Positions 22,546-45,898 of a stretch of DNA of 64,000 bases are shown here, in pieces. The translations under genes and the position numbers were made by a program. The stretch is from assembly GCA_039583875.1 (NCBI GenBank), contig CM077150.1, forward strand, positions 47,072,261-47,136,260, written 5' to 3'. Each line of letters begins with the position of its first letter. Positions within the stretch are counted from its first letter, which is position 1. The notes below the pieces were generated by a model, which saw only the letters and a list, made by a program, of their open reading frames with translations, was not told the DNA's origin and ran no database searches. This DNA is from Platanthera guangdongensis. Taxonomy: Eukaryota > Streptophyta > Magnoliopsida > Asparagales > Orchidaceae.

Positions 22546-22628
22546 AAAAAGGCTCAGAGATCAAGAAATCAGTCAAAAGTTGAAATTTTTCTAAGTTCAG
22601 ACTTTATGACTCGATTAAGACAAAGACT

Positions 22629-22823
22629 ACTCGAGTAGTACTTCAGCCTACTCGAGTACTCTGACTTTCACTCGAGTAAACTCTAAACTACGAGTACTTC
22701 CTCAACCAACTCGAGTACTAATGAGATTACTCGAGATGCATAAAGACAGATGACTCGAGTACTTCAATTTCTTCACTCGAGTACTATCATCATTTCACTC
22801 GAGTACTTCCAATTCACTCGAGT
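22629..22823. repeat. Second ACTCGAGT array, ahead of the SIRE-A 3' ORF
   Basis: About ten copies of ACTCGAGTAC-type motifs lie between the end of RNase H and the 3' ORF, using the same palindrome as the LTR array. The last copy ends at 22823, and a TATATAA box starts at 22944, 120 bases on. That is the same gap as in both LTRs, although the intervening DNA is not recognisably similar. One further motif lies at 22998-23005, after the TATA box. Confidence 0.92.
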
Positions 22824-22943
22824 ACCAAGAAGACTCTTTCTCAACTTCAATTCAAATTTTTTATTCGCAACCCGAGGCTTATGCAGCCCTTTCCAAGGTC
22901 ATGTTAAGCTTAATTTACTTTCTTAATCATCATAAATTAGGGT

Positions 22944-22950
22944 TATATAA
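22944..22950 (+). promoter_or_regulatory. Candidate internal promoter of the SIRE-A 3' ORF
   Basis: TATATAA (within GGTTATATAAATAG) lies 152 bases upstream of the ATG at 23096 and downstream of a palindrome array matching that of the LTR promoter. This is inferred from layout; no transcript evidence is available. Confidence 0.55.
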
Positions 22951-23095
22951 ATAGAAAAGTCTGGAATTCATTTCTCTACACGAATCAAAACCCCTTCACT
23001 CGAGTAAAGCCGAAAGACTCTTCATATTCCGCCGACAGTTGCAGAACCCGCGTCGTCTCCCTCCCCGCCGCAGATTTCCCTCAAATCCCTAGATC

Positions 23096-25490
23096 ATGGC
23101 ACCTTCTTCCAAGATTGGAATCAGCTATGAGCTCGCCGTCGCAGGGATTGCCGACATATCAGACGATTTCCGCAATCTTCTGATCCTCCTCGACACCGCC
23201 GGCCTAACATTCATCCTACAGCAACTGTGTAAGATACTATTTCCAGAGGTCGAAGAGTTCTTCAAAAACATCAAGGTCAAGAGAAATGGAACAGTCCTTA
23301 AGTCCAAAGTGAAGGGAATCAAGATCAAGCTCTCCAAATCCTCTGTTTCAACTCTTCTTTGACTGCCAGTTGTTGATAAAGAAGATCACCTTGGTCCTGA
23401 GGATACTGACAGGACATGTATGTTTTGTGGTGTCTCTCCAGATGTACTCACTATCAAAAGATCAGAACTAAATCCAGAAGGAAAACTGTTTGTCGACATC
23501 ATTGGGAAGATACTTCTATGCAAGACAAGTTCAATCAGAGATATTTCACTCAGTATGTTTGACATCATGATAGCTATCATTTGCAGGAAGAGATATCAAT
23601 TTGGTATGTTAATTCTAGACAAGATCAGGGACAGCATCAAGGCTCCAAGTTATGCAAGGATTATCTCCATTCTACTACATGAGATCAATCCTGAAGTCTT
23701 CAACTTCTCCAAAGGGACCATTCTACATCACATGAAGAAAGTCTCTATTTCATCCATTCAGAGATGGGACTTAAAGCTGTTGAATCCTGTTCAATCTGCC
23801 AGAGCCCATGAACTTCCTACTGTAGAGGATAGGACCCCATCTCCCTCTCCACCTCATGTTGTCAGCACATCTGGTGTAACTGCTGAGGGGGAGCCTGCTC
23901 CTTCTGTTCCAGAAGTCAGAGTCCCTACTCTACCAGCTGATACTTCTCTCCATCCATCCACTCCTGAAGAAGTTCCAATAGATGCTCAACTCCAAGAAAC
24001 CCTTCTCTCCACTGAAACAACCATCAATGAGATGATTGAAGAGTTAACTTCTGAAGAACCTCTTCCCCCACTTCAAAAAGAACAAACTGTCGAACCATCA
24101 AAGAAACAAACTCCAGTACCTTCTCCCACTCATACTCCTCCCAGATCTCCTGTTCCATCTCCTCAATCCCCTATTCACCACTCTCCTGCTGCTGACAAAG
24201 AACAGGTTGAGACCATTTTGATTCCTGATGACAAAGAAACTTCTCCAGAACCAGTTGAAGCTCCCTTGAAGAACCTAGATTTTCATATCCCCACCTTCAT
24301 CACTAAAGAAGGGGATGCCATGATTCATACCACCAGAGCTGAGAGCTCTCTGGTTATTGAAGAAATTACCCCATGGTTTGCTCCTCCTCCTCCAGTTCCT
24401 TCTACATCTACTGCTACTCCTCCTGCTGCCACTGATCTTATGGGTATGTTTGTACAACTACTTCAAGAATAAAGAAAATATTTTGATGATTCATTCAAAG
24501 CTGTTACTGAGAAAGTAACTGCTCTTGAGAAAGAGATGAGTAGAGGCTTTGCTGAGATTCAGCATAATACAGATCAATTAAGATAGCTATTCCAGATAGG
24601 TGGCAAAGCTCTGGACGCATTATCACTAGTGTTGGTCTTGTCATGGAACAAGGTGTCACTCTTGCCAACAACCAGATTGAGTTAGATAAGAGAGCATAAG
24701 AACATAAAATCAAGATCTGTGAAGAGGTAGGCACATTCAAAGATGATGATATTAATACTCTGACTGTAGAAGTCAGAAAGGGGGAGAGCTTACTAAAAGA
24801 ATATCTAGACAAATCAAATGCCAACAAGCAAACACTCTGGGAAGCTAAGATGAAAGAAATTCATGATGATCTGCTAGGCTAGATTCAAAGTGTGAAGTTT
24901 CATACTTATGATACAGCAGTCTGGATGCATAATCAGATACTCCCTGACTTTCCAGCTGATCCAAATGTCATTCCTCACCATCTGAATCCCTTGGCTCATG
25001 TTCCTCCATCTTCAATCCCACAGCCTTCCTTCTCTCCAAGACCTGAAGGATCAGAAGCCCCCCCCCCCCCCCCTTCAGATTCTAGGAGGCTTATCCAACA
25101 GACATTTTTCTTCATGCTCCTCCTAAGATTCATATTCCAAAGAAGAGAAAGTATGGTGATGGAGCCTCTGCCAGTAGATCTATTCCAGTACCAAACTCAG
25201 AGAAGAGAAAAGCTCCAGAATTTGTAGAGATTTGGTCTCCTACTTCTAAGTCACTTATTCTGGATAATCTCAAGCTTGTCATGGATTTCAATGAAAATAG
25301 GAATGATTATTACAACTCCTAAGAATGAGACTTATATGAGAAGTCTATGACAAAGAGAAGGTTATATGACAGATAATATGGAAGAAACAATCATGTTGCT
25401 CCTCTAAAGCCTCCAAAGTACTATCCCAAGCCTTACAGTTACCAGAGAAGACATCAAGAGAAGAAGGACAAACAACAACATCAAGTTTAA
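23096..25490 (+). pseudogene. SIRE-A 3' ORF (Sirevirus extra ORF), broken
   Basis: It starts MAPSSKIGISYELAVAG. Its N-terminal 200 residues align by eye with the intact SIRE-B ORF: a KSKVKGIKIKLSKSS segment, LNPEGKLFVDIIGKILLCKT, SMFDIMIAII and the RIISILLHEINPEV region. TGA at 23360 replaces a Gln codon. The frame resumes to 24472 through a Pro/Ser/Glu-rich stretch, then is broken by several stops. A recognisable basic C-terminus follows, with PPKYYPKPYSY (about 25410-25440). Sireviruses often carry an ORF here, sometimes called envelope-like, but I see no signal peptide or membrane segment. After 25490 there is only non-coding sequence up to the polypurine tract. Confidence 0.8.
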
Positions 25491-25690
25491 GCATAGAGAA
25501 GTTATGAGAGTGGGGATATGAATTGTGTAGAAATTACTTTTGGACAATCTTAGTTACATAATTCTTAATTTTGATCCTCTGCTCTTTGATTTTAATCTTT
25601 ATGCTTGTTACACTGCTTTCTCTCTTGATTATCTAGTTCTATATTTATCTATATAATTCACCTTAGTGTAGAGGGTTTTGACTTCTACAA

Positions 25691-25702
25691 ATAGGGGGAG
25701 AT
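25691..25702 (+). promoter_or_regulatory. SIRE-A polypurine tract
   Basis: ATAGGGGGAGAT directly precedes the 3' LTR, the expected site of plus-strand priming. Confidence 0.85.
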
Positions 25703-27478
25703 TGTTAGGTATTGTATCCACAATAACCCAGATTTGGTGAAGTCACCCTTGAACTAAGATGAATTAAGTTGTATTTGACGTCTTGTTTGAGTTATGTGTT
25801 GGCAAGACTATATTGCCAAGTGTAGACCAATGTCAGTCTACAATGGTTCACCAAACACAGGACCATACAATGTAATCGCTCATTGTGTGATCTATGGTGT
25901 TGACTCATGTGTAGCCTCTCTATTGGGATACACTTCATCTTTCCAGTACTAGGATTGATTGGAGAAAGAAGTGTTGCTGAGTTTATTGAAGAAGAGAAAA
26001 TTTTGTTGAAGAAAATTTTGCTAAGTCTTTTACTCGAGTAGTAGTTTATACACTCGAGTCGAATACTTGGTAATTACTCGAGTAAACCTATCTGTACTCG
26101 AGTAAGGAAAATGACTCTCGAGTAGTCTGATCATAGCTCTCGAGTAGCCAAGTCCACTACTTGAATAGACCTTTTTTTATTTTCGAGTTAACAGAATTTC
26201 CTCTAAGAATTTATTCTAAGTCTTTTAATCGAGTAGTCATGTTAACCACTCGAGTAGATAAGTTTTTTCTCGAGTTACAGAAGACAGATTTTCGTGTTGT
26301 TTTACCCCACTCAAGTAGTCAAGTTCATGCACTCGAGTAGTCTATCTACCACTCGAGTAATCCAGCTCTAATACTCGAGTGATCAGATTTTTATCTCTCA
26401 GAATTTTTCTAAGTCCCATACTCGAGTAGTAATATTCATATACTCGAGTGGTTTATTTCTAGTACTCGAGTAGTTCAACTCCACATATCGAGTAATCATA
26501 TTAGAACTCGAGTAAGTCTTTATGTACTCGAGTGATTACTCATTCTATTCTAAATTTTGTCAAAGTCTTCTACTCGAGTAGTCTCCTTCTATTCTCTCGA
26601 GTAATCTCATTAATACTCGAGTAGGTAATCTTTTACTCGAGTAAATCAGTCATATTTTTCCAGAAATTTGCTAAGTCCAGAATCGACGGGAATTTCAAAT
26701 GGCTTGACGTGATTGGTCCACGTGTACGTCATTAATACTAATTATGACCGTTAGGGAGATCTTATATAAGGTATTGTCAAAACCGACTAACCCTAATAAG
26801 TTGTCAACGTATTATTCTAAGAAATCTGAATCCTATTCTCTCTTTCTAAAAACGGAAGCCGCTGACCTTCATCGTGCATATCGGCTTGGATTTTTGATTC
26901 AAGAAGATTCAGATCAAAGTGGACTTACAGATCGAGATTGCTTTTTAACTCCTCATCATCTCTAGGATCGTGTGAGTCAAAGGAATTTCAGATCCTGATC
27001 TTGCCGAGTTTCTTCTTCAGCTTATTCCGATAAAGCCGAAAAGATCAAGGAAGAAGACCTAGGCCGATAGATTCCAGATCTGAGAAATTACTGTTTGTAT
27101 TTTCATATATTCTCAATTTAATTCTTGTAGGAGATTTCTCTCCGAGTGTATGAGCTTTTGTCTCCGAGTTGTAGGAAGTTTTTATTTCCGAGTGTAGATC
27201 CATATTGTGGATCAGGATTGTAGGAACTTTGTTCCGATGCGTAAGATTGGTTTTCAATCCGAGATAGTGGAGTAGTTGAGTCTACTGCTTTGCTAGATCG
27301 GTGAGGGAAAGTGGATGTACCCAAGGTTGGGGAACCACTATAAATCTTTTGTCGTCTGTGATTTCTTGGTTGATTATTGTGTGTGTAGATCTCTAAATTT
27401 TTATTCCGCAACAAGATGCACAACTCACCTATTCACCCCCCCCCCTAGGTGATTTAGGTAGACAACTGAACACTTTCA
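25703..27478 (+). repeat. SIRE-A 3' LTR
   Basis: It runs TGTTAGGTATTG...ACACTTTCA, 1776 bp. It matches the 5' LTR with scattered substitutions and a loss of about 20 bp spanning one array unit (near 26450). Its array lies at 26031-26642 and its TATATAA at 26763-26769. A C-run near 27437 is longer than in the 5' LTR. Confidence 0.92.
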
Positions 27479-30400
27479 CTGATCCTAGCTACCTCCTCCT
27501 CTGAATTCTCTGTGATGATCATATCATCAACTTACAGCAGGACCAAGACTTGAAGCTCCCCCTTCTTCTTGATGAACAAGCTTGAATCTGAGTTGGAAGC
27601 AAGATATCCGCAAAATTGGAGGTATTCTGCTATCTTCTCATACCAAGCTCTTGGAGCCTGCTTCAACCCATAGAGAGCATTCTTGAGTTTGCAGATGTTG
27701 TCCGGATGAACTTCAGAGACAAATCCAAGCGGCTGATCCATGAAGATGTCCTTATCTATCTCTCTGTAAAGAAAAATGTTCTTTACGTGAAGCTGCCACA
27801 ACTTCCATCCTTGGCAAGCAGCCAAGACGATCACCACCCGAACCAAAGTCATCTTTGCAACTGGACTGAATGTCTCATCATAGTCCTCTCCATACTGTTG
27901 TGAGAATCCTCGAGCAACAAGGCGAGCCTTGTATCTTTCGATGCTCCCATCAGCCTTCTTCTTCAACTTGTACACACACTTGCAAGTCATTGGAGTAATG
28001 TCATCAACCCTAGGCACAAGGTCACAGGTTTCATTCTTCTTGAGAGCAGAAATCTCCTCCTTCATGACATCTTCCCACTCCTTGACTCTAGTGGCCTCAT
28101 TGATGTTTGCAGGCTCTCGCTCATCCAGAGTACTTGGAAAGAAGCAGGAGACAAAGCTCACTGCATTCTCTTCACAATAACGAGCTGGTGGATTGATAGT
28201 ACTCTTTGATCTCTGAAGGGTCTGCTCCTTACTCACCACCTCTGTTGCTTCTTTAGGCTCAGCTCCATTTCCAGGTAGATTTTGAGCAATGCTCCCCCTG
28301 CTTCCTGAATCAGTGGCCTCTGCCCCAGAGCTAGAAGCAACAAGAGCTGCTGGTGAAACAACAAGCTCCTCTTGAAGAACTTCAGCAACCACCTTCTGCT
28401 CTTCATCAACCTTGCTCTCTGATAGCTCAACTGAGCCTCCTCCATACGACGTCAGTTCATCAAAGACCACATCTCTTGATACAACAAACTTATTCGTCGC
28501 AGGATCCATGCACTTCCATCCCTTCTTCCGCTCGTCATAGCCTACAAAGACAAGCTTCATTTCCTTTGCATCAAGCTTTGTCCTTGAAGCATCCGGGACA
28601 TACACATAGCAAGTTGATCCAAACACTAGAAGGTGTTGCACGCTTGGCTTCTCCTTCAGCAACATCTCGAAGGGAGACTTCATGTTGATCGGACTAAGTG
28701 ACATCTGATTGATGACATAAGAAGTGTAAGACATTCCCTCTGCCCAAAAAGACCTAGGAATGTCTTTTTCATGAAGCCAGCACTTGCAGGTTTCCGTCAG
28801 ATGACGGATCTTCCGCTCCGCTACTCCATTTTGTTGTGGAGTATGAGCACAAGTAAGCTCTCTCTAGATCTCGTGCTTCCTGCAAAAGTTAAAAAATTCA
28901 CAGGATACAAATTCACCACCGTTGTCTGATCTAAACTTCTTGATCCGCAGACCAAGCCGGACCTCCACCAGCTCCTTGAAATCCACAAACAAATGGAAAG
29001 CTTCTGACTTCTTCAAGACAAGCATGTATTTGCTGCCTCCAAGACTAGTAGTAGCAGTTGGTCTCATCAAATCACCATGGATACACTCCAATGGTCTCTT
29101 GCTCCTTGTTTGCGACTTATCAAATGAAAGGCGATGAGCCTTACCGTACTGACACCCTGCGCAAACTTGACCGTCGCCAAAGGATGAAAGCTTAGACAAG
29201 CCTTTCACAAGGCTCCTATTTGCCATACCTTTCAGCTTATCCATCCCTACATGCCCCAGCCTCTCATGCCAAATAGCAGCGCTATCGTTTGCCCTCATCC
29301 GATCAACATAAGAGTTTGTTGCAAGAACAAAGTAGTTCTTTACTCTCCTCCCAACGTGAGCAACATCTGCATTTACCGCTGATACGTTGCGAAGAAACTT
29401 CACTTCTGTTGGCCCAAATAGAACGTGATAACCTGCGTCTACCGCATTGGTCATAGAGAATAGGTTCTTTTTCATGCCCGGTACATGATCCACACTCCTT
29501 AACATGAGTGGCCCCTTATCACCACCCAAGGACACAACCCCCTCCTTCTCTACTGCATAAACAATATTATCAGCAGTAATAATAACATCGTTACCTGAGT
29601 AAGTTTGCAGTGAGGATAACTTTGACTTGTCTCCGATGAGGTGATGACCACACCTGGAGTCCACGATCCAGTCGTCTTCAAAGTCGATGGAGGACAAGGC
29701 ACAGCCACAAGTGCTCGTCATGAAAGCTCTACCCCAGCCAGCTTCCTCAGTATTAGAGCAAGCTTCCTCCTTGCCTGCAACATGCCCAGGCTGCAGCTTG
29801 ACCTTGCAGTCACGCTTGAAGTGACCAGGCTGATGACACCTGTAGAACTTCAAATTCTTCTTCCAATCCTTCTTAAGAGCAGTGCTCCTCTCTGACTGAT
29901 AAGAGGTTGAAGGCTCATTTTCAACAGCGGTCTTCTTCTTCTTCCCTTCTCATCTCTTCTTCTTCTTGCCTGTGAAGAGCGTTTCACTGCCTTCTTCAGA
30001 AATAGAGACTCCAACCATCTATCTAGCCAAACTTTCCTGCGAAGCAAGCAGGTTCTCAAGTTCCAGCAGAGATGGCTGAGTTTCCCACCCTTGAACAAAG
30101 GTTACAAAGGCCACATACTCCTTCCGCAAGTTGCGGATTATGTGTCTTTTCATCTTAGCCTCAGAGATCAGCTCATCAGGATCAAGCGCTGATAACTCAG
30201 CACACAGACACTTTATCTTCAGAAAGAACTTAGAGATGGTCAGGTCACCTTGAGTTGTCCTAGCAAACTCATTCCCCGGGAACTGTAGTCTCGCCACATT
30301 CTTTCTGTTGAACAACTCATCAATGGTTGTCCAAATATCAGCAGCTGACTCACATCCGATGATATGATCAAACAGCTCTGGTGAAACAGCCCTCTTGAGG

Positions 30401-30609
30401 ATAAACTCTGCCTTTGTATTAGTTTTCCTCCAGACCCTCACCTGCTCAGCAGTCCCAAACGTAGCTGTAACTTCCTGTCTGTCGTCACCAGCGACGACCT
30501 CCCATAGCTCCTCGCCCAGAAAATAACTCTTCATGCCCGACTTCCACTTCTTAAAGTTAGTCGGCATTAAGAGCTCAATACCCAGACCTCTTGCGTAACT
30601 TACTTCCAT
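27479..30609 (-). pseudogene. Copia-A gag-pol (gag to RT), broken
   Basis: Read on the minus strand from ATG 30609. Gag has TNFKKWKSGMKSYFLGEELWEVV and LFDHIIGCESAADIW, followed by TAG near 30018. The CCHC knuckle YRCHQPGHFKRDC keeps the spacing but begins with Tyr instead of the first Cys. Protease DDWIVDSRCGHHL has Asp-Ser-Arg where Copia-B has Asp-Ser-Gly. GAG-pre-integrase has WHERLGHVGMDKL. Integrase has CIHGDLM, RSDNGGEF and AERKIRHLTE, with TAG at 28863 between pieces. RT has the first catalytic Asp changed to His (LWQLHVKNIFLY), and its YVDD box begins with TAA (about 27529-27531). Stops relative to Copia-B fit CAG-to-TAG and TGG-to-TGA changes. Confidence 0.9.
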
Positions 30610-30680
30610 TGCAAAAACTTTGGTTAAGCTTCCATAAGCACATAGCACAACACAAGTTGATCACTGCTCAAGCAATTGAA

Positions 30681-30696
30681 CCTCCCTCTGATACCA
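30681..30696 (-). promoter_or_regulatory. Copia-A primer-binding site
   Basis: TGGTATCAGAGGGAGG on the minus strand directly adjoins the LTR end. The same PBS is used by Copia-B. Confidence 0.88.
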
Positions 30697-31244
30697 TGTT
30701 GAATTTTCTCAAGATGATAAGCGGAATAGTCTGACACCAAATTAATATTCTCAGAGCTATCAAGATCACACCTTGATCAAGCGGAACTAGGAAAGCAAGT
30801 TCAAACACCAATTACAAGAAGAATGAACAGGCAGATCATATATTTATTAACTTCTTTACAGGGCGAGGTATACGTGGGGCGACATGATTTCGCCAGTAGA
30901 CAAGGAAAAAACAGAAAGAAACAAATCAATCCGGGCGGACAGAACTGGACACCGCCGAGACCGTCCAGTCCGCCAAAGTCGCCAAGGCCGCCCGAACTGC
31001 TGCTGCTAGAAGACAAATAGAACACGGAGTCCGCCGAGACCGCGAGGTCGCGTGGACACGACGTTATTTGCTGACTGTTCCGAACAGAAGAACAGACTAC
31101 CTAACCGCCCGAGTCCGGCGGACAGATTATTGAACTTGGAAAAGCTGAAACAGAGAAAACTGACATGCCACAGAAGCGACCTGCTGAGACCGCCGATTAT
31201 AACCGCAAACTTCACTGATCCTGACCGAAGTCAAAGCCAAACTC
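30697..31244 (-). repeat. Copia-A 5' LTR, 3' part only
   Basis: It matches the corresponding part of the left LTR from TGTTGAATTTTCTC to CAAAGCCAAACTC, where Copia-B begins. In the left LTR the sequence continues TTGGCTCTGCAG. The remaining part (about 1.08 kb) is predicted to lie beyond the right edge. AACTC (31240-31244) should be the Copia-B target duplication. Confidence 0.85.
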
Positions 31245-32912
31245 TGTTGAATTTTGTGAAGTGGAAGTGGTTGACGGGACAGGCCGGGCGGCCTGGGCGG
31301 ACAGCATTGGCGGACTAGGCGGACTGGGCGGACTGTGATATGCGGCCTGGTGGAAGGTCTAGTGGAAAGTCGGCTGTCGTCTGAGCGGGTTGTTGCATGG
31401 AGTCCGTGGACTGTGCGGCCTAGTATCTGCGGATAGGATGTTGGCTTTGGTTTAGCCAAGGAGCGGACTGAGCGGATAGAGGCTTGCGGACTGGTGCATT
31501 GCTCAGTGGCCGCGTGTGCAAGCTTGTGCTGATAGGCGGTTTGGCTCATGTCTGCTGGAAGCTTGCAGACTGGTGTGTCTGTGGTGTGGGCTGTTGCGGA
31601 CTGTGCTTAGAGCTTGGCTGAGGCCTTGTCGAGCTCTGGTGACACAGCAGGTGCTTTGCTGTGGAGGTCTTTGGCAGACTGGATTATGAAGTCCGGGAGA
31701 TGGCTGCTGCATTGGGCAGGAGTGCGAGGAACTTGCAGACTGCTGGCGGTCTGTGCTAAGGTGTTTGGCGGACGGGAGTTTGAGTTCGCCATGCTCGCAT
31801 TAGCCCTTGATTGTTTTGGACTTGGTCACATTCTGTGTCAAGACCATGGTGTCCGCGGTATCCGTTAAGTCTGCTGTGACCGGGCGGACTGTTGTTATCT
31901 GCCTTTGGTCGTGGACTTGTGGCGGATTGAAGTGTGAGTCTTGCGGACTGCCTCGGGTTGGTGCGGACAGCCATTGAAGGGGGTTGCTGTCCTGCAGTGG
32001 TCGGAAGCTTTGCGGGCTGATGCCTTGTCCGCATAGCTTTGGCGGACTGGAGAGGGTTCGCCAATGTTGCCTTGCTCCTGGCGGTTTTCCTTGGTATCCG
32101 GCTAAGTCCTTGCGGACTCGGCGGACGGTGTTTTGCTATCGCGTGGGATGGGGCGGTGTCTCTATCTCTAGGGCGGTGACCACACTCCTCACCTCGCCTA
32201 TAAATAGGACCCCCCCCCCCTGGCAGGTCTACAGTAACTTGAGTGAACAGTAAGTTGGGTGGGCAAGAAGCTGCGGTCTGAGTTCGTCTGTCCGCGCGGA
32301 TTGTTTCAGTGCTGACGTTTGCTGTGTGCAGGACGCGCGGGTTGCTTCAAGGAGCCAGGAGTTTGGCTGTGACTTCGGTCAAGTACTTGAAAGTGTGCGG
32401 TCTCTGCGGACTCAGCAGGAGGTCGCTCTGCGGCTTGTCAGTTCTGTTTCATCTTTGCCAGCTTCAATAACCTGTCCGCCGGCCTCAGGCGGGTAGGGGG
32501 TGTTCCTCAGTTCAGCTTCAGCAGGAGACGAATAACAGTGTGTTCGCGCGGCCTCGCGGCTTCGGCGGACTCCGTGCTATTCGGCGGATTGCAGCTAAGT
32601 TCGGGCGATCTCAGCGGACTCGGCGACCTCGGCGACCTCGGCGGTCTCGGCGGACTCCGGTGATGTCCGCCCGGCTTGTTTTTTGGTGCTTTCTGTTTAC
32701 AGCTGTTATACTAGCGAAATCATGTCTCGCTATGTATGCCTCGTGTTGTAAAGAAGTGAATGAATAACAGACCTGCTTGTGCTTCCATTGTTTGTTGGGA
32801 TTAACCTTTGTTCCTTGGTTTTTCCGCTGGTTCAGCGTGAGAACTGGGTAGTTCCAAAGATATTAATTTGGCGTTTGGGCTATCTTGTTGACCACATTGA
32901 GAAAATTTAACA
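31245..32912 (+). repeat. Copia-B 5' LTR
   Basis: It runs TGTTGAATTTTGTG...GAAAATTTAACA, 1668 bp. It is densely populated with GCGGACT and GGTCTGCGG-type motifs. A TATAAATAGG box is at about 32199-32208, followed by a C-run. The PBS follows immediately. Confidence 0.9.
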
Positions 32913-32928
32913 TGGTATCAGAGGGAGG
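32913..32928 (+). promoter_or_regulatory. Copia-B primer-binding site
   Basis: TGGTATCAGAGGGAGG directly follows the LTR end. Confidence 0.9.
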
Positions 32929-33035
32929 TTCAGTTGCGTGAGCGGAAGTCAGCCAGTGTTGTTACTCACTGATTGAGTGGTGATCAACCTGTGTTGTTGC
33001 TCGGAGCTTCTGAAAGGTTGCCAACAGGTGTTGCA

Positions 33036-37124: not shown

Positions 37125-37712
37125 ATTTTGTGAAGTGGAAGTGGTTGACGGGACAGGCCGGGCGGCCTGGGAGGACAGCTTTGGCGGACTGGGCGGACTG
37201 TGATGTGCGGCCTGGTGGAAGGTCTAGTGGAAAGCCGGCTGTCGTCTGAGCGGGTTGTTGCACGGAGTCCGCGGACTGTGCGGCCTGGTATCTGCGGATA
37301 GGACGTTGGATTTGGTTTAACCAAGGAGCGGACTGAGCGGATAGAGGCTTGCGGACTGGTGCATTGCTCAGTGTCCACGTGTGCAAGCTTGTGCTGATAG
37401 GCGGTTTGGCTCATGTCCGCGGGAAGCTTGCGGACTGGTGTGTCCGCAGTGTGGGCTGTTGCGGACTGTGCTTAGAGCTTGGCTGAGGCCTTGTCGAGCT
37501 CTGGTGACACAGCAGGTGCTTTGCTGTGGAGGTCTTTGGCGGACTGGATTATGAAGTCCGGGAGATGACTGCTGTGTTGGGCAGGAGTGCGAGGAACCTG
37601 CGGACTGCTGGCGGTCTGTGCTAAGGTGTTTGGCGGACGGGAGTTTGAGTTCGTCATGCTCGCATTAGCCCTTGATGGTTTTGGACTTGGTCACATTCTG
37701 TGTCAAGACCAT
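37119..37712 (+). repeat. Copia-B 3' LTR, 5' part only
   Basis: It matches the first part of the 5' LTR, with one short deletion near 37195 and many transitions. It stops at GTCAAGACCAT; in the 5' LTR the next bases are GGTGTCCGCGG. The break coincides with the TG start of Gypsy-E, so ACCAT (37708-37712) is the likely target duplication. Confidence 0.88.
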
Positions 37713-38945
37713 TGATGGCGACGGCCATCATGATGGCGATTACGACAATGGCGGCCTAATTGGTAAAGATGACGGCGATGACGACGATGGCGGCGATGAC
37801 GACGATGGCGCACGTGGTGTTCATGGCGATCGCGAGATATTGGCGGAAGATGAAGATGATGATCCACCGGCCAAGGATTTGCGGCGCCGCAGCGGCCATG
37901 ACTACAATCTTCGCCAATGGAAATAGACTTATTATCATTAATAATTTTAATTTGCTAGTTTATGAGTTTTTAATAATTGACATTTTTATGTTGGTGTGCG
38001 TTTAGTCACTGTTTTGGGCTGCTTATAGTTTTTGTTTGATGTAAGCCTTATAAAAGGCCATGACTATTGTTTTTATCATTAGTTTATGAATGAATTGAAA
38101 ACCTAAATTCCTCCAACCTAATTTCTCTCCTTCATCCCTCTTAGCTGCCGCCTCCCTTAGGGGTTCTTCTTCTCCAAAGCTCTTGGCCGCCCCTCCTTCT
38201 CACTTCTTTTCCTCTTCTTTCATCTACTCCCTTTCCCCCACTCTTCAATACCTCCATCATCGTGTTTCTCCTCCACGGTTTCTTCACCTCCCATCAATCT
38301 TCGGTCTCCTTCGGTTTGGGGAGTCAAGTGCAAGGAAGAAGAGGCCATCGTGGACTTCTACGGCGAAAGGCGGGGAAGACGATCGAGTTTTCTCATCATT
38401 GGTGCATCTCCCGTCGCGTCCAAGGAAAGCGATCGTTCTTGTTTGTGGATCCAACATCTCGGATCTACTATTCCGAGCGGGGTAACGAAACCATCTACTC
38501 ACGAGATTTCTTTCTTAGATAGTTCTTGTGGTGGCGACTTTTGCGTGGAATTTGAATCGTTGAATTTTCGCGGTACTACTTTTAATAGTTTGTCATTTTT
38601 GTTTTGTTTTCCGAAGATCCTTCGAGAGGAGTGGCGATCCTCGCTTCTTTGTTTTAGTTGGGATATATCCTACCATTTTCCGAATTCGTGATTTATTTTT
38701 TGGTGGATCTATTTTGGTACAACTCCAAGCTCGTCGGAATAAATATTATTCCCTTTAGCCGGAAAGGATTTTGGCCTATAGCCATTCTCCATTCCTTTAA
38801 CGGATCGGCTATCCGTATGTTAGCGCGACAGATAAATTAAATCATTGTGACGGCTGCGTTTCATAGTGTGCTGGTTAGAGAGCGTTGAGAGTTGCGAGCG
38901 TCGTCGTCACGCCGTCCGTGTAGGATCTTTTAGGACGGACCTACA
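37713..38945 (+). repeat. Gypsy-E 5' LTR
   Basis: It begins TGATGGCGACGG and ends GGACGGACCTACA (alternative end 38948, CATCA). The 5' portion contains a GAT/GAC/GGC triplet-rich stretch (about 37722-37815) that reads as Asp/Gly codons in one frame. A TATAAAA box at 38049-38055 sits in an AT-rich core. The U5 part is pyrimidine-rich. The right partner LTR is outside the window, so the left end rests on the Copia-B comparison. Confidence 0.75.
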
Positions 38946-38951
38946 TCAATT

Positions 38952-38963
38952 TGGTATCAAAGC
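38952..38963 (+). promoter_or_regulatory. Gypsy-E primer-binding site
   Basis: TGGTATCAAAGC is a one-base variant of the Met-tRNA type and lies a few bases after the LTR end. Confidence 0.7.
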
Positions 38964-39007
38964 GAGATTCTCGTCAATTTCCTAATTGACACTCTTCCCC
39001 CTCTTCA

Positions 39008-39125
39008 AATTAAAAACAAATAAATTTCAAAATTCAAATTTCAAATTTCAAAATTCAAAATTTAAATTTCAAATTTCAAATTCCAAAATTTCAAATTACA
39101 AATTTCAAATATCAAAATTCAAAAA
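39008..39125. repeat. AT-rich TTCAAATT microrepeat in leader
   Basis: Interspersed AAATTTCAAA and AAAATTCAAA units alternate for about 120 bp between the PBS and gag. The rest of the leader to 39364 shows no coding or repeat structure. Confidence 0.8.
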
Positions 39126-39364
39126 AAATATTCTTGTTGGTCTGCCAATAGCGGCCTAGATTTCTTATTTTTCAGCAAAATTAAAAAAATAAATTTTTTA
39201 AATAAACCTCATATTTTTTCCAGCAAGAAAATCTATTTTATATATTTATAATCTTAGTGGCTAAGCGGGAACAATTCTATCTTTCCTAGAATTAGTTGTT
39301 CAGGTACCATTTCTTTGCATTCGCATAAAATCCGGATCGAGTGTCCTCTCCGGTTCACACTGAA

Positions 39365-39475
39365 ATGGCTTTCGACGTTAACGCTTCCAATCGTCCCCTG
39401 ACTTATCTACACACTAATATTTTTACCTATGATGGTTATGGGGATCCCAAGTATTTTAGATACTAGCTTGAGGGG
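39365..39475 (+). pseudogene. Gypsy-E gag, N-terminal part
   Basis: ATG 39365 opens a frame reading MAFDVNASNRPLTYL and then GYGDPKYFRY, followed by an in-frame TAG (39464) where a Trp is expected, and LEG. At 39475 it is cut by Copia-C. Removing Copia-C and one AGGGG copy joins it in frame to the segment starting at 63126. Function would be capsid formation; with the stop it is probably dead. Confidence 0.7.
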
Positions 39476-39883
39476 TGTTGAAGTATTAGACCGGGCGGCT
39501 TAGCGGTCTGATCCAGCGGTTTGTTGACCGGGCGGCGTAGCGGTCTGATCCAGCGGTTTGTTGACCGAGCGGTCTGGCGATCTCACTCTGAAGCCTGGAG
39601 ACCGGGCGGTCTATCGGTCTACCATTGCGGCCTGTTCTATCCTGCTGGAGTTGCCGAGCGGTTAACTCATCTATCTAACCGCGCGGCCTGTGCGGTCACC
39701 TTTATTCTAGCCGCTCAGTATTGTAAATGTTTAGTCCCACAATGTTTGTATTCTCTCTTTCTTATCTCCTCCATTCTATATAAGGGAGGCCATACCTTTG
39801 TAAATGATATAGTTTTTGGATAATAAAATTTCAATTATTCAAAAGTTTATCCGCTTGTTCTCTTTTTTTGCTACTTTCTAACA
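39476..39883 (+). repeat. Copia-C 5' LTR
   Basis: It runs TGTTGAAGTATTAG...CTTTCTAACA. The U3 part carries repeats of GACCGGGCGG, AGCGGTCTGATCC (a 38-bp unit in tandem near 39490-39565) and CCGCGCGG. A TATATAA box is at 39777-39783, and GTCCCACA lies just upstream. Confidence 0.95.
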
Positions 39884-39896
39884 TGGTATCAGAGCA
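39884..39896 (+). promoter_or_regulatory. Copia-C primer-binding site
   Basis: TGGTATCAGAGCA directly follows the LTR. Confidence 0.9.
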
Positions 39897-40244
39897 CACG
39901 GTCATTTCCTCCTGATTCTGTGCGCTCTCTGCTGTTCGCGGCTTGTTTTCCGCTTTCTGCGACCTGTCTCGCGACTTGCCTTCTCTTCTGTCCGCTACCC
40001 TGTTCGCGCGGCTTGTTTCTGTCCGCTGCCCTGTTCGCGCGGCTTGCTTCTTCTTGGCTCTCTTCTCCTACTACTATTCGTCGCAGCGACCTGTTTCCTT
40101 GTCGCCGCGCTCCTTGTTCTTTCTTGCCTCTCCGACTTCCTAGTCGTTGCGGCCTGTCCCTGTCCGCCTCTGCTTTCCCCATTTCCGCTTGTCTCTATAC
40201 TCGCGGTTTGCTGCTGTGATCTGCCTGACCGTGCGGGTTGTTCC
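39897..40244 (+). repeat. Copia-C leader, GC-rich CGCGCGGCTTG repeats (part 1)
   Basis: The leader between PBS and gag contains direct repeats around TGTTCGCGCGGCTTG and CTGTCCGCTGCCC. It is cut by SIRE-B at GTTCC (40240-40244) and resumes at 57950-58132 with more CGCGCGGCTTCTTC repeats. Long frames here are repeat artefacts. Confidence 0.75.
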
Positions 40245-41133
40245 TGAAAGATATGGTACCTAAACACCTAGAGGGGGGTGAATAGGTGACCTAAACCTTT
40301 TTAAAACTTTGTTGGCAGCACAACAGTTATTTCACAGATTACTACAGCTAACAGCAATTACAGAAATCAAACAGTCAATCCACAGCACAGCACAGCAGAC
40401 ACACTAATTTATAGTGGTTCCCCAATCTTTGGGTACATCCACTTTCCCCCTTCGCCTATCTAGCAGTGTACTACATTCGGCCAAACTTCTCCACTATCTC
40501 AGAACCCAACAAGGTTCCTACACCTCAGGCCCAAAGCCTTACACTCAGCCACAAAGGCCTACACTCAGCCACCCAGGCCTACACTCAGCCAATTAAGGCC
40601 TACACTCAGAGTTCTTCAACTCCTACACTCAGGCAATCAAGCCCTACCCTCAGCCTTTATAATATAGGCTTACAATTCTCTCAAATCCAATGGATCCTAC
40701 AAGTTAAAATAGAAATACAATTGTTAACTCTACAACTCAGAAAATAAGAGAGGAGTTGAGAGTTTCTTGAAGAGTTCTTGGAAGAACTCAGTTAGATCCA
40801 AACTGACTTAGCTTCCTTCAAAGCTTCTTGAGTTAGAACTGAATTAGTCTGAATCTTCTGCAGTTGATCCTTGACCTCTGCTTCTTGAGATCCAGATGTT
40901 TCTGAATCCTTCTTCTCAGCCTTAGTTCCAAAGACTGAATTCTTGATTGGAGCTCTCTCTCTCCAACTTCTTAGATCTGCAGTTGGACTGACAGATCTTC
41001 TTGTGTTGATCCTCTGTATATGACTTTTCTGATTTCTTGAAGAATCTGATCAACCACTTTAAGTATTCTTCACAACTACTTGTAACCAACAACAATCAAT
41101 CACACACACTTTTTCTGTAAACAATGGGTGCCT

Positions 41134-41140
41134 ATTTATA
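41134..41140 (-). promoter_or_regulatory. SIRE-B LTR TATA box
   Basis: TATAAAT on the minus strand (GCCTATAAATAGGC context), downstream of the palindrome array. The copy in the 5' LTR is at 56786-56792. Confidence 0.7.
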
Positions 41141-41273
41141 GGCTTCCTTCATGGTAACCGGCTGATCCGGTTCATAACAGACTTCTGATTTCTCTGACAG
41201 TTGCAGTAGACCGGCTGGATCGGCAGCTGTCATGTCAACCAGTCACTTCTTGAAATTCTCTAACTGTCAGATA

Positions 41274-42147
41274 GTGTCGAGACTTTCTGTTCTTAAGTGT
41301 CGACACTTATAGACTAAGTGTCGACACATGTTGTGTAAGTGTCGACACAAGTCTACAAGGTGTTGACACAATTCCTTGTATGTCTCGACACAGATTCTTC
41401 TGCATGTGTCGACACTGAAATTGAGTGTCGACACAAGTCTTATTCTTCATTCTTTAACTGTATTCTTCTAAGTGTCGACACATGTTCTTTGTGTCGACAC
41501 ATCTTCATGTGTTGAAACTGTCAAGTGTCGACACTGCTTCTTGGTGTCGACACAAGTCTTCACTTTTGTTTCTTCAGCTGAGTGTCGACACATTCCTTTA
41601 GTGTCGACACTTTTACTTAGAATATTTTGTAACTTTTCTGTTCTTTGCTAAGTGTCGACACAGCTCCTTGTGTCGACACTTTCTTCAAGTGTAGAGTCTT
41701 CAACTAAGTGTCGACACATTGTGCTGAGTGTCGACACTTTCTTCAAGTGTTGACTTTCCTGGTTGTGTGTCGACACATTGTGCTGAGTGTCGACACTTTC
41801 TTCAAATACTGACTCTTCAGCATAGCGTCGACACATTGTGTTGAGTGTCGACACTTGTACTTAGATTCTGCAGACTTTTGCTGAGTGTCGACACAGCTCC
41901 AAGTGTCGACACTTTCTGGTGTAGACACAGCTCTTCTAGGTGTCGACACTTCTGCTAAGTGTCGACACAGCTTTTCTGCATACTTCTTCACTGAGTGTCG
42001 ACACAGCTCCAAGTGTCGACACTTTCTGTCTGGTGTCGACTCTTCATTCCAGGTGTCGACACAATGACTCCAAGTGTCGACACTGCTTGTCTGGGTGTCG
42101 ACACAAGCTTTCTCAAGTGTCGACACTTTCCCTCTGGGTGTCGACAC
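41274..42147. repeat. GTGTCGACAC palindrome array, SIRE-B 3' LTR
   Basis: Roughly 40 copies of GTGTCGACAC or near variants are spaced mostly 15-30 bp apart over about 870 bp. The 10-base motif is a perfect palindrome with core GTCGAC. The equivalent in the 5' LTR is at 56926-57800, with one or two unit-level differences. Confidence 0.95.
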
Positions 42148-42292
42148 ATGGACTTAGAAACTTTTAGCTTCAGTCTAGTGAATACCTAACCTGCAAAAGT
42201 AACTCAAACACACATCAAATACATTATGATGTATATCATTGAGTTAGGTGAGGCTTCTTCAAATCAGGTACATTTGATCAATGTACCCAACA

Positions 42293-42306
42293 ATCTCCCC
42301 CTATTT
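42293..42306 (-). promoter_or_regulatory. SIRE-B polypurine tract
   Basis: AAATAGGGGGAGAT on the minus strand adjoins the 3' LTR, nearly identical to the SIRE-A tract. The stretch 42307-42571 between it and the 3' ORF is AT-rich and shows no further gene. Confidence 0.88.
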
Positions 42307-42571
42307 GGAGAAGTCATAACCCTTAGTCAATGATATACACCATTCACAATTAAAAAATTATAAAATGATGAAAAGCAAATTATAATCAGCAGGGTTAACA
42401 TGAACATGTAAAACTTCACACATATACACATTCAACATTCCAGAACAAATAAGAAACAGACATATTTCAGAACAATCATAATATATTTATCATATATTGT
42501 TCTAACATAGTTCCTTATACATTTTCAATGTTGTACAAAAATGTTTTTCATTTAAAAGTTTACAACAGGCT

Positions 42572-45388
42572 TCAAGTAAAATTCCTAATCCATTTCAGAT
42601 CAGGTTCTTTGATAACTATTCCCTTTCCAGCTTTAACTTGAGCTTTGACAGCAGCAGCAGTAGTAGGCTCAGCATCAGCAGGCTTCTTGCCTTTGGAGTC
42701 CTTCTTCTTTAGTTCTTCAGCCTTGATTTTTTGTCTCTCAAAATAATGATAGGGCTTAGGAAAGTACTTGCTAGGCTCCACAGCTGTAGGAGGTAGCTTT
42801 CCTAACTTAGCCTTCCTTCTATACTGGACAATGGCTTCCTGCCTGATCTCATGCTTCCTCCATTCTGCTTCTGAGAACCATTTATTCCTTTCATGAGCAT
42901 TGTCCTTGGCTGCTTTCCAGGCTGTGAGAATGATGTTCCTAGAAGTAGGGCTCCACTGTTCAAAATCTGGTTTTTGCTCAGCAAGTTCCCTGAACTTCTT
43001 CTTTGACAGCCTTGTTTCTTCTTCTTTGTCCATAGCCTCTTGCATAGCTGCTGTAATAGGTTGAGTAACCTTTTCTAAATGGACATTGTCCTTGCCCCCA
43101 GATGGGCTATACATAGTGCTCACCTCTGCATGAATCATTTCAAAATCTGGAGGTGGATAAATGACTTGAGCTACTTCTTGTGGCTCACCTCCAAAATAGG
43201 CAGGGTTCAGTCCAGATTCAGCAACTTCATTGTCATCACACAGGGGAGGATATCCAAGTGTAGCCCTGATTGAATTTGAAATCCATTTTGCATGCTCAGA
43301 ACTGGCCTTGACTAACACTCTCTCCCCCTTTATGACTTCTTGGGCTACATGGTCTCTTACATCATCTTTCTGGAACCTGATTTGGCTGTCCAAATACCTT
43401 ATGCCATCCTTAAAGAAAGGTCTAAGCTTGGTAAGCTGTTCAGAAATGACCTTCTGGGAATCCTTGATTGCAGTCTTGACAGCAGCAAGTTCTTCTTGAA
43501 AAGCTTTATCAAATTCAGCCTTGGCAGCATCAGCAGAAGTAGATGGTTCAGCAGACTTATTCTTTAATTCAGTCACTATAGCATTGTGAGAGGCAGTTAA
43601 ATTGTCATTCATTCTTAATTGATTCTCCAGCACATAGCCTTGCTTTAGTGCTATATCATCCACTTGAGTCTTTATTTTTTCTTGGTGGGTTGCCAGATAG
43701 ACCACTGCATGAGCACCCTTGGTAAAACAGTCAGTCATCTCCTTTTTATTAAGGTTCATTTCAAACCTTATTGACTTGATGTCCTGTGCCAGATCCGATT
43801 GAAGTGCCTTGTGCCCTTCATCAACATAAGTTTCTATAGCCTTCCTTTGTTCATCCATCTTGATTTGCATTGCAAGCAGTAGAGCACTGTAATCAGTTGA
43901 TGGAGCTTGTTGGACTAAGGAGTGTTGAGCAACAGTTTGTAGAGCCTTCTTGTAGCTCTGACTCCTTCTTTTGAAAACAAAGAATTGTTTCTTCTTAGCT
44001 TGCTCAGTTTCTTCATCCTCAGACTCTGATGTACTTGCTATATTTACCCTATCCTTAGGGCTTGAGGGTCTGTCAGCTTGCACATCTAGTGCCTTCTCAG
44101 TATCTAGCCTTATAGGCTCTTCCTGAACTTCCAGATTCTCCCCCTCAACAGCAGCACCCTTCTCTTCAGTAGCAGCATTCTTCCCTTCATCAGCAGCAGT
44201 CTTGTCCATGTCAAAGTCCTCTTGATCTAAATTCAGAAATAGATCTTCCATTGTATATTCTGGGGGTGACTGAGCAGGAAATGTACTGGGTACATTAACT
44301 ACAGCAGATGTGTCTTGGAGAACAACATCTGGTTCTTGAGTTGCTTGCTGATTTTGCTGATGGACATCAGACAAATCAGAATTTATTATAGAAAAATCTA
44401 AAGTATTGAGGTCAGATAGTACCTCTTGGATAATTATTGTAGCTTGCTCACTCTCCAGTGTAGAGGGTTGTTCTACAGCTGGAGGCTCCCCCTGGATTTC
44501 AGCTGGCTCTTGAGGAGCAGGTGACTTCTCTGCAGCCTCATCCTCATGATTATCAGGAGTGAAAACAACATGTTCTTCACTACCTGAGCTGCTGGAGGAC
44601 TCCTGAGTCACAGCAGCTATTTTCCTCTTCTTCTGTGGGGGTGAATCTTTCTTAGAAGCTTGTTTCTCAGGGGTGGTCAATTCCTTTGACAGTACCCTTT
44701 CCCACCTGGAGAAGATCCTCATGTCCATCCTTCTCATGTGGTTGATTTTAGCACCAGCAGCATTGCTCATTACCTCTGGTATTGTACCAGCCAGGTAGAG
44801 ACTAAGTATCCTGCCCAGATTGGGCTTTTTCAGACTTTCCTTTACTTTCTCAAACACAACCATGGACCAGTCTGTTTTGAGGTTGAAGATGATTCTAGTC
44901 ATAACACTGAACATGGAGGCTGACACCCTGTCATGCCCTCCAGTCTTGCTGAGGAGTACTTTGCCCACAATTTCTGACAGAAATTTTCCTTGGGTATTCA
45001 TTCCTTTCCTATTGAAGACAGAACCTATTTTCATCTTAGAATCTAGACCACACCAGGCAAGTGCTTCTTTGGTCTTAGATGTTGTTACTTCCTCTTCTTC
45101 CTGAACTTTAGGTAGCTGAAGTACCTTTCTCAGAGACTTGGGTGAAATCTTGACCTTGGTGCCATGCACCCTTGACTTGATTCTGTAGCCTGAGTCATCT
45201 ACAGACGCTCCAGTAAGAAATTCAATAACTTCCTTCTTCCAAATTTTGGTTGGTTCTGAAACCAAGAACTCCAATCCTGAATCGGTGATTAGGGTTACCA
45301 CCGATTTTATTTCTTGATTGCCATCGTCGAATGCGCCTCGCACGAGCTCATAGCCTTCGTTAACGTTCTCTTCCAGCTTGGGAGCCAT
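42572..45388 (-). CDS. SIRE-B 3' ORF product, 938 aa, function unknown
   Basis: An uninterrupted frame begins MAPKLEENVNEGYELV. Residues about 1-240 form a domain shared with the SIRE-A 3' ORF: KSRVHGTKVKISPKS, a LSEIVGKVLLSKT segment and RILSLYLAGTIPEV. Residues about 245-470 are acidic and Ser/Pro/Gln-rich. A short basic run (KKKQFFVFKRRSQSYKKAL) follows. Residues about 500-680 look coiled-coil and charged, and the C-terminus is Lys-rich (KYFPKPYHYFERQ, then KKKDSKGKKPA). I see no signal peptide and no hydrophobic membrane span, so an envelope role is not supported by the sequence. ATG 45388 follows a TATA box by about 100 bases. It is intact although gag-pol of the same element is not. The N-terminal domain resembles one seen in plant proteins annotated as putative plant transposon proteins (recalled family knowledge). 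Confidence 0.88.
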   Translation of the reverse strand: MAPKLEENVNEGYELVRGAFDDGNQEIKSVVTLITDSGLEFLVSEPTKIWKKEVIEFLTGASVDDSGYRIKSRVHGTKVKISPKSLRKVLQLPKVQEEEEVTTSKTKEALAWCGLDSKMKIGSVFNRKGMNTQGKFLSEIVGKVLLSKTGGHDRVSASMFSVMTRIIFNLKTDWSMVVFEKVKESLKKPNLGRILSLYLAGTIPEVMSNAAGAKINHMRRMDMRIFSRWERVLSKELTTPEKQASKKDSPPQKKRKIAAVTQESSSSSGSEEHVVFTPDNHEDEAAEKSPAPQEPAEIQGEPPAVEQPSTLESEQATIIIQEVLSDLNTLDFSIINSDLSDVHQQNQQATQEPDVVLQDTSAVVNVPSTFPAQSPPEYTMEDLFLNLDQEDFDMDKTAADEGKNAATEEKGAAVEGENLEVQEEPIRLDTEKALDVQADRPSSPKDRVNIASTSESEDEETEQAKKKQFFVFKRRSQSYKKALQTVAQHSLVQQAPSTDYSALLLAMQIKMDEQRKAIETYVDEGHKALQSDLAQDIKSIRFEMNLNKKEMTDCFTKGAHAVVYLATHQEKIKTQVDDIALKQGYVLENQLRMNDNLTASHNAIVTELKNKSAEPSTSADAAKAEFDKAFQEELAAVKTAIKDSQKVISEQLTKLRPFFKDGIRYLDSQIRFQKDDVRDHVAQEVIKGERVLVKASSEHAKWISNSIRATLGYPPLCDDNEVAESGLNPAYFGGEPQEVAQVIYPPPDFEMIHAEVSTMYSPSGGKDNVHLEKVTQPITAAMQEAMDKEEETRLSKKKFRELAEQKPDFEQWSPTSRNIILTAWKAAKDNAHERNKWFSEAEWRKHEIRQEAIVQYRRKAKLGKLPPTAVEPSKYFPKPYHYFERQKIKAEELKKKDSKGKKPADAEPTTAAAVKAQVKAGKGIVIKEPDLKWIRNFT

Positions 45389-45423
45389 TAGGGTTTGGAG
45401 AATTAGTCTTTAGAGAAGAGAAA

Positions 45424-45865
45424 TGTCGACACAAGAGTTTTGGTCTCGAAACTTTTGAAAGCGTGTCGACAAACAAAGACAGAACCCTATTTATACCTTT
45501 CTTGTTTGAAGACGAACAGGCGGGATGAATTTCTAAAGATGTGTCGACACTGTCAATAAGTGTCGACACTGACTTATAATGTCTCGACACACATGTGTCG
45601 ACACAAGTTTAGTCAACAGATTTTATGTGTCGACACTTGGTTAAGTGTCGACACCACACTACTCGACATGTAGTCGAGACTTAGAAAATTCTGAGTAAAA
45701 CTTAAGTGTCGACACTTTATTGGATGTGTCGACACCTACTCGACATGTGTCGACACTAACATTCTGAAGTGTCGACACCAGCTTCCTAGATGTGTCGACA
45801 CCATTTTCCTGAAGTGTCGACACTTACTATTCTGTGTCGACATAGACTTGTCTATGTGTCGACAC
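45424..45865. repeat. Second GTGTCGACAC array, ahead of the SIRE-B 3' ORF
   Basis: About 18 copies of GTGTCGACAC or variants fill most of the gap between the RNase H stop (45899) and the 3' ORF start. Most lie upstream of the TATA box at 45495; two weaker copies lie between TATA and ATG. The motif is the same as in this element's LTRs and different from SIRE-A's. Confidence 0.93.
45489..45495 (-). promoter_or_regulatory. Candidate internal promoter of the SIRE-B 3' ORF
   Basis: TATAAAT on the minus strand (GGTATAAATAGGG context) lies about 100 bases upstream of ATG 45388 and just downstream of the second GTGTCGACAC array. The layout repeats that of the LTR promoter. Inference only. Confidence 0.55.
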
Positions 45866-45898
45866 CTTTTTACTTAGCCAATTTTTAGTTCTGTAAAC

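Follow-up and report, generated by a model that had tools for sequence, protein, structure and literature searches.

Matching palindrome arrays in the LTRs and upstream of the 3' ORF of two Platanthera Sireviruses mark a candidate internal promoter

How Sireviruses express their envelope-like gene is a question that goes back to 2002 or earlier (Peterson-Burch and Voytas, cited in PMC2829016). The window analysed here, 64,000 nt of Platanthera guangdongensis (GCA_039583875.1, CM077150.1 47,072,261-47,136,260, forward strand), contains two elements, A on the plus and B on the minus strand, in which the gap between RNase H and the 3' ORF carries an array of short palindromes (Table 1). Could this gap be a second promoter, and what keeps its motifs the same as those in the LTR? 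Both elements are Sireviruses (Pseudoviridae). In each the PBS TATCAGAGC follows A[T/G]TGG (ATTGGTATCAGAGC in A, AGTGGTATCAGAGC in B) and the terminal PPT is AGGGGGAG with AT/TG, additional copies bringing the PPT positions to 23886, 24779 and 25693 in A and 42295, 43322, 44138 and 44486 (minus strand) in B. A copia-type RT (RVT_2) was found in both and zf-CCHC only in B, the gag piece of A matching no Pfam family, and a C-rich integrase signal, judged by eye, lies near the LTR end (CACCCCCTCTAGGTG in A, CACCCCCCTCTAGGTG in B). Element B is flanked by GGAAC at both outer ends.

Table 1. Positions of the features of elements A and B within the window.
Feature	Position	Strand	Remarks
A 5' LTR	15168..16965	+	93.3% identity with 25700-27478
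A LTR U3 array, ACTCGAGT	15500..16132	+	14 exact, 23 at ≤1 mismatch
A LTR TATA box (TATATAA)	16252..16258	+	121 bp past final array motif
CTAAGT at head of A gap array	22591..22596	+
A internal array, ACTCGAGT	22609..22823	+	between RNase H and 3' ORF; copy 1 (22609) degenerate
A internal TATA box (TATATAAATA)	22944..22953	+	121 bp past final array motif
Lone ACTCGAGT in predicted 5' leader of A	22998..23005	+	similar copy there in L005, L008, L010
A 3' ORF remnants	23096..25227	+	ATG 23096, first in-frame stop 23360
A 3' LTR	25700..27478	+	array at 26032-26642
B 3' LTR	40245..42292	-	array at 41297-42148, TATA from 41140
B 3' ORF, uninterrupted	42572..45388	-	938 aa; weak PF20167 match, 25.3 bits (cut-off 45)
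Two TGTCGACA copies at/past predicted start of B	45424..45471	-	copies at 45464, 45424
B internal TATA box (TATAAATAGG)	45486..45495	-	46 bp past array
B internal array, GTGTCGACAC	45541..45866	-
CTAAGT at head of B gap array	45872..45877	-
B RT end and RNase H ORF	45899..46648	-
CpG-free B gag-pol, two parts	53309..55894 and 45899-48622	-	0 CpG in each
Copia element nested within B	48623..53308	-	its LTRs 98.9% identical
B 5' LTR	55895..57944	-	array at 56949-57800; 99.4% identity with 40245-42292

A preliminary description had proposed that each element repeats its own LTR array in the gap, with palindromes that differ between A and B, and the motif counts in the window bear this out. Besides the A 5' LTR (Table 1), ACTCGAGT occurs 9 times exactly and 11 times at ≤1 mismatch in the A gap, and 16 and 22 times in the A 3' LTR. 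Counts of GTGTCGACAC (exact/≤1/≤2 mismatches) are 29/35/36 in the B 3' LTR, slightly below the roughly 40 given earlier, 29/34/36 in the 5' LTR and 12/16/17 in the gap. All 39 exact copies of ACTCGAGT in the window lie within the LTRs and gap of A and all 70 of GTGTCGACAC within those of B; near-matches outside the arrays are isolated singles, and beyond element B the 8-mer TGTCGACA has one copy in the window, at 23491. The earlier range for the A gap array (22629-22823) leaves out the palindrome at 22998. When the A 5' LTR, A gap, B 3' LTR and B gap were each simulated 500 times with a first-order Markov model, no 8-bp palindrome exceeded three copies in the LTRs or two in the gaps. The motifs stand about 21 bp apart, with 16/22, 8/9, 23/33 and 10/13 intervals of 18-24 bp, which none of 5000 random placements matched for any array. 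Spacings centre on 20-22 bp yet vary, and strict helical phasing is not claimed.

To sample other copies in the host genome, 13 stretches (L005-L017) were taken from the places listed first for a single A-motif pattern, partly for visible internal clusters. Six had an RNase H match (L005, L006, L008, L010, L012 and L013), while L007, L009 and L011 were LTR pieces, L016 had a 3' ORF match without RNase H, and L014, L015 and L017 held two to four A motifs with no query match. L019 and L020 were chosen since B arrays showed in L011 and L016; the sole stretches taken blind were L021-L029, 89 kb adjoining the window, from which elements C, D and E derive. RNase H matches in L022 and L023 were at 35-43%. 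The 8-mer matrices exclude L006, a near copy of L005, and L013 and L018, which have a D-like gap motif and a truncated LTR; L020, of B type with its 3' ORF cut short by other sequence, is in one matrix and absent from the other.

Among these sampled copies the A-type and B-type gaps carry their own family's motif, and across A, B, C and D the gap motif is that of the element's own LTR, the co-variation that the preliminary description had asked about. Repeated 8-mers of a gap generally recur in U3s of the same family, and unrelated U3s have few or none: those of A gaps number 76-149 in A U3s vs 0-1 in B, C and E, those of the C gap 26 in the C U3 and 0-2 elsewhere, and those of B gaps 87-195 in B U3s and 21-29 in the C U3. 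The C U3 holds six B-type motifs, and the C gap lacks them. By 8-mers the D gap gives 46-66 in A U3s vs 55 in its own, and D is separable from A only by its mix of half-sites, with 7 TACTCGA and 9 TTCTCGA in the gap and 10 and 16 in the U3, a similar proportion; in the gaps and U3s of four A-type elements TTCTCGA counts 0-1. Element E has an LTR array but no 3' ORF hit, a linker of about 270 bp and no gap array, so that gap arrays were found only alongside the envelope-like gene, with E as the single negative element. From copy to copy the motifs are 0.89-0.96 identical and the spacers 0.41-0.69.

The likeness of the two arrays had been ascribed to recombination or to a shared binding factor. 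With motifs masked, LTR and gap were aligned and the score compared with those of 200 shuffled spacers. For the A LTR and A gap 80/200 shuffles attained the score, which is chance level, and for the B LTR and B gap 11/200, which is marginal, with the best alignment outside the LTR array. The cross pairs gave 143/200 (A gap-B gap), 26/200 (B LTR-A gap), 3/200 (A LTR-B gap, an unexpected pair) and 0/200 (A LTR-B LTR, best stretch downstream of the arrays). As LTR and gap spacers lack clear homology, the arrays are unlikely to be kept alike by recent recombination, which these alignments do not support. Exchange between LTR and gap, by gene conversion or template switching, would suit arrays that are repetitive and match within elements, the B-type block in the C U3 suggests that array segments may move, and few shuffles reached the B score; but the chance-level result in A, the position of the best B alignment and the flank preferred after the motif in A, AGT in the LTR vs ACT in the gap, make it very unlikely. 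On these alignments the shared factor is the favoured one of the two proposals. Sites that co-vary between LTR and gap suggest a single trans-acting factor for each family.

The gap also has the layout of a promoter. A TATA box follows the array at all four places, as had been described, lying 135 bp past it in the B LTR, and palindromes recur downstream of the internal TATA, once in A and twice in B. A TATAWA match is present in 9/10 gaps examined (four A, four B and D); C has a weak TATA, TTATATC alone. In both window elements the 3' ORF starts at the first ATG past the internal TATA, while the leaders of L005, L008 and L010 contain one or two additional ATGs. The 3' ORF of A is broken, with 16 stops up to 25230. 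In that of B Pfam gave no recognised DNA-binding domain, and a single-sequence structure model of its N-terminus (pLDDT 37) was set aside. A PDB sequence search returned 0 matches, and two queries of viral contigs confirmed no relatives.

It is also conceivable that an old duplication of U3 left the gap array behind as a relic, and that the message for the 3' ORF is spliced from the LTR transcript. CTAAGT precedes the arrays in both LTR and gap in most elements examined (the gaps of L010 and C lack it, and in L005 it lies far from the array), C has an acceptor-like TTTCTTTCTTGCAG immediately ahead of its ORF, and for other plant envelope-like genes the accessible part of PMC2829016 cites splicing or stop-codon suppression. 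A relic would decay, however, whereas in A-type gaps motifs keep 0.91-0.96 identity with spacers down to 0.41-0.68, and gap motifs follow LTR motifs across families; we regard this explanation as improbable.

The CpG content sets the same region apart. The gag-pol of B has 0 CpG over 5,310 bp. Non-motif CpGs per 200 bp peak at 0 to +200 from the internal TATA in 6/7 elements (12 in A and 10 in B of the window, 14 in L005, 13 in L006, 12 in L008 and 13 in L010), the exception being L012, with 8 in the preceding bin vs 6; the +800 bin has none in all six elements read. Between the two LTRs of A, CpG decay affects 3/21 motif sites and 18/37 others (Fisher 0.011; sites counted by hand, four other-change sites dropped), a difference that is only suggestive. 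CpG-free bodies with CpG at two promoters may be the footprint of unmethylated stretches, or of selection against CpG. Together with the TATA box, the first-ATG start and the conservation across copies, this footprint argues for the internal promoter that had been inferred for the 3' ORF, as a prediction from sequence.

Could the arrays instead act as RNA, with stems between neighbouring repeats serving translation, packaging or siRNA and no internal promoter? The A and B gap arrays fold far more strongly than shuffles (z -5.64 and -10.64), and maize LTR palindromes are described as small-RNA hotspots in the accessible text of PMC5311732 and PMC10760457. Strong folding is, however, expected by construction from self-complementary repeats, pairing requires complementarity alone rather than a single fixed palindrome at about 21 bp, and the array is followed by a TATA box and the CpG footprint. 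We consider such a role unlikely.

It would seem likely that these are Sireviruses with two Pol II promoters, LTR and internal, read by one family-specific dimeric factor of host or element origin. The palindromes, about two DNA turns apart, would be its binding sites; the U3 array would act as the enhancer driving genomic RNA and the gap array as a second enhancer, with transcription starting from the internal TATA box to give an mRNA for the 3' ORF. A changed preference of the factor would select the same change at both arrays, which would turn over jointly because one factor reads both, while the spacers drift. The simplest element-encoded candidate is the 3' ORF product, which might bind its own palindrome as a dimer, activate both promoters and prevent CG methylation there; we propose this only tentatively and think it doubtful. 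B- and C-type bodies would then have been cleared of CpG, and the two promoters would stand out as protected CpG islands. E, with an LTR array and no 3' ORF, would have to depend on a host factor or on the protein of a different element. Such an anti-silencing system would be a retrotransposon counterpart of VANC, with sites co-evolving. VANDAL elements are DNA transposons. In the part of PMC5735166 accessible to us, VANDAL/VANC likewise has short motifs that have multiplied into arrays in the non-coding parts of the TE and that vary from one related family to the next; there a TE-encoded motif-binding protein is demonstrated, whereas the arrays here are known from sequence.

The paired internal array, thought new in the preliminary description, was already reported by Bousios et al. 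2010 (PMC2829016), including its family specificity and the internal-promoter idea. The accessible part of that paper describes family-specific palindromic repeats (RMs) upstream of the TATA in Sirevirus LTRs, additional RMs just upstream of the envelope-like gene (77/79 of the RM copies in linkers), linkers without RMs in the four elements lacking that gene, CpG islands at both the LTR and pre-envelope arrays, and a suggested internal promoter that could not be identified there. Like those RMs, the A and B motifs are palindromic, multicopy and upstream of both the LTR TATA and the envelope-like gene. They differ from the CGG-CCG signature that the accessible text gives for 12/13 elements (Tnd-1 excepted): neither ACTCGAGT nor GTGTCGACAC has it, A, B, C and D having a TCGA core without CGG-CCG, while the Vitis motif of that study has both. 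Arrays in the LTR cis-region, as here, are also known from maize Sireviruses (Bousios et al. 2016, via the accessible text of PMC5311732 and PMC10760457). In comparison with the part of PMC2829016 available to us, a TATA box, leader palindromes and a CpG footprint here mark the candidate internal promoter, and the CpG-free body, the spacer test and the mixed-motif match are not described there. New here are the matching of gap to own LTR in A-D, including the two half-sites of D, and E without 3' ORF or gap array; LTR and gap spacers without clear homology; and the gap TATA, the palindromes past it, the CpG-island-like footprint at the predicted start and the CpG-free gag-pol of B. A closely placed candidate internal promoter whose sites co-vary with the LTR makes expression of the envelope-like gene directly testable.

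The window contains two Sirevirus-type copia elements, A and B, each with the Sirevirus primer site and the AGGGGGAG-AT/TG junction. GGAAC flanks B on both outer sides. The 3' ORF of B runs for 938 aa with no interruption, and in that of A the earliest in-frame stop is at 23360. Both elements carry a second tandem repeat of about 20 bp, GAGTGTAGG-like, within the 3' portion of the LTR. At another locus, L013 (G000:C1:1488000-1497900), the segment of a Sirevirus from RNase H through the gap to the start of the 3' ORF is tandemly triplicated, with a period of about 2.7 kb and three RNase H matches.

Elements and associated features, in window coordinates
Feature	Position	Strand	Remarks
Element A	LTRs 15168-16965 and 25700-27478	+	LTR identity 93.3%
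Element B	LTRs 55895-57944 and 40245-42292	-	LTR identity 99.4%
Nested copia element	48623-53308		inside B's pol; 1005-aa ORF; LTR identity 98.9%
CpG-free gag-pol of B	45899-48622 and 53309-55894
Second tandem repeat, A	16620-16740	+	by eye
Second tandem repeat, B	40517-40653	-	by TRF

The palindrome arrays of the preliminary description, in the LTRs and in the gap between RNase H and the 3' ORF, are real. Exact copies of ACTCGAGT in A number 14 in the 5' LTR, 9 in the gap and 16 in the 3' LTR, and exact copies of GTGTCGACAC in B 29, 12 and 29 in the 3' LTR, gap and 5' LTR; neither occurs elsewhere in the window. In simulated sequence (500 runs for each of the four regions) any 8-bp palindrome reached at most 3 copies. 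Adjacent motifs mostly lie 18-24 bp apart, and for each of the four arrays 0 of 5000 random placements equalled the observed spacing. Every array is followed by a TATA box, as had been claimed. With the start of A's gap array set at its degenerate first copy, 22609, CTAAGT is the sole hexamer common to the 40 bp upstream of all four; random sets of four 40-mers shared any hexamer in 13 of 20000 cases. Two ACTCGAGT with 12 bases between them occur 53,457 times genome-wide (4.25 Gb), against 112 for the reversed pattern. Two TGTCGAGTAG sites in B's gap, at 45661 and 45738, are hybrids of A and B half-sites.

The match between internal array and own LTR extends to other families of this genome. 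We compared 8-mers in two matrices, of nine elements (four A type, four B type and C) and of ten (four A type, three B type, C, D and E), where C, D and E are further families; only these three came from a stretch taken without selection, so the sample is small. In both, repeated gap 8-mers are present in the U3s (the array-bearing part of the LTR) of their own family and occur seldom or not at all in U3s of unrelated families, with two overlaps, A/D and C/B. The A and D motifs are related: 8-mers of the D gap reach a score of 55 against D's own U3 and of 46-66 against those of A, so that D is separated from A only by a second half-site, TTCTCGA, found 9 times in D's gap, 16 times in its U3 and 0-1 times in A. 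The half-site proportions of D are alike in gap (7:9) and U3 (10:16). Embedded in the TCGACGAA array of C's U3 (L024, sense 5872-6004) is a block of six TGTCGACA motifs of B type that the gap array lacks, which looks like possible motif turnover or replacement in progress. The linker of E is about 270 bp long, and E shows neither a 3' ORF match nor a gap array.

Recombination or a shared binding factor had been proposed to keep the two arrays in step. With motifs masked, alignment of gap to own LTR is at or near chance level: its score was reached by 80 of 200 shuffles in A and by 11 of 200 in B, where the best alignment lies off the array. This speaks against recent recombination. Masked A LTR against B gap stood out above either own pair (3 of 200 shuffles), for which we offer no explanation. 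Motif identity is 0.89-0.96 against 0.41-0.68 for spacers among A-type copies, and 0.94-0.96 against 0.63-0.69 among B-type copies, values biased towards motifs because repeated motifs attract the alignment. The matching would seem to come from selection rather than copying, and the shared factor is retained: two promoters per element, both under one family-specific factor, is probably the best explanation.

The anatomy of the gap agrees with the internal promoter suggested earlier for the 3' ORF. In A, TATATAAATA lies 152 bp before the ORF ATG at 23096, and in B TATAAATAGG lies 107 bp before it; in both, the first ATG downstream of the internal TATA is the ORF's own. The remaining A- and B-type gaps and D also have a TATA match, and C has TTATATC only. 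The four A-type gaps that were aligned also have a motif copy in the leader, and three A-type copies have extra leader ATGs. On this sequence evidence an internal promoter is probably present. A telo-box-like sequence, TAGGGTT/AAACCCTA, lies beside the internal TATA in the gaps of A (22930-22955) and L013; in B it coincides with the region of the start codon (45380-45400).

The gag-pol of B has 0 CpG in 5,310 bp against 206 expected from base composition; the only CpGs of its ORFs, at 53266-53291, are past B's edge, and the arginine codons of these ORFs are AGR in 77 cases and CGN in 2. Other B-type copies have 0 in 5,307 bp (L012), 7 in 5,541 bp (L019) and 6 in 5,469 bp (L020), and C has 2 within the 1,829 bp read. 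Near-total absence of CpG is a feature of B- and C-type gag-pol, with promoters keeping CpG, and was not seen in gag-pol of A type (observed/expected 0.44-0.52), D (0.50, part read) or E (0.56), nor in the nested copia ORF (0.62). In the distal 3' ORF the ratio is 0.00-0.13 in all seven elements examined (A and B of the window, L005, L008, L019, C and D). CpGs reappear in the arrays. For 6 of 7 elements the peak of non-motif CpGs per 200 bp (10-14) falls directly downstream of the internal TATA, the exception being L012 (8 in the bin before, 6 after). The promoter contrast is weaker in A type, given its gag-pol background of 1-9 CpG per bin. It would seem likely that both promoters have been unmethylated in the germ line and that the body has lost its CpGs through deamination or selection. 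TpG and CpA are elevated in B (1.20-1.41), consistent with deamination; in our judgement decay alone seems insufficient to bring the ratio so close to zero. Among the matches listed, with subscription papers mostly outside the scope, no title or abstract start dealt with a lack of CpG in Sirevirus bodies or with the mapping of an internal promoter; PMC6696364 contains the term 'internal promoter'.

The paired internal array had been thought undescribed, but it is a known arrangement, being described in Bousios et al. 2010 (PMC2829016). That paper reports palindromic repeated motifs, differing mostly from element to element, in 13 Sireviruses, where they precede the LTR TATA box and stand a second time directly upstream of the envelope-like gene. 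Of 79 linker copies, 77 have this latter position, and linker copies are missing from four elements that lack the gene. CpG islands are reported at both sites, and the authors favoured an internal promoter, which they could not identify. What our results add is confirmation of this arrangement in new variants, stronger evidence for the internal promoter that had been proposed, and a CpG pattern that was not expected. A and B share the paired LTR and gap arrays of those elements, but their motifs are a variant, with a TCGA core and without the CGG-CCG signature of most motifs described there.
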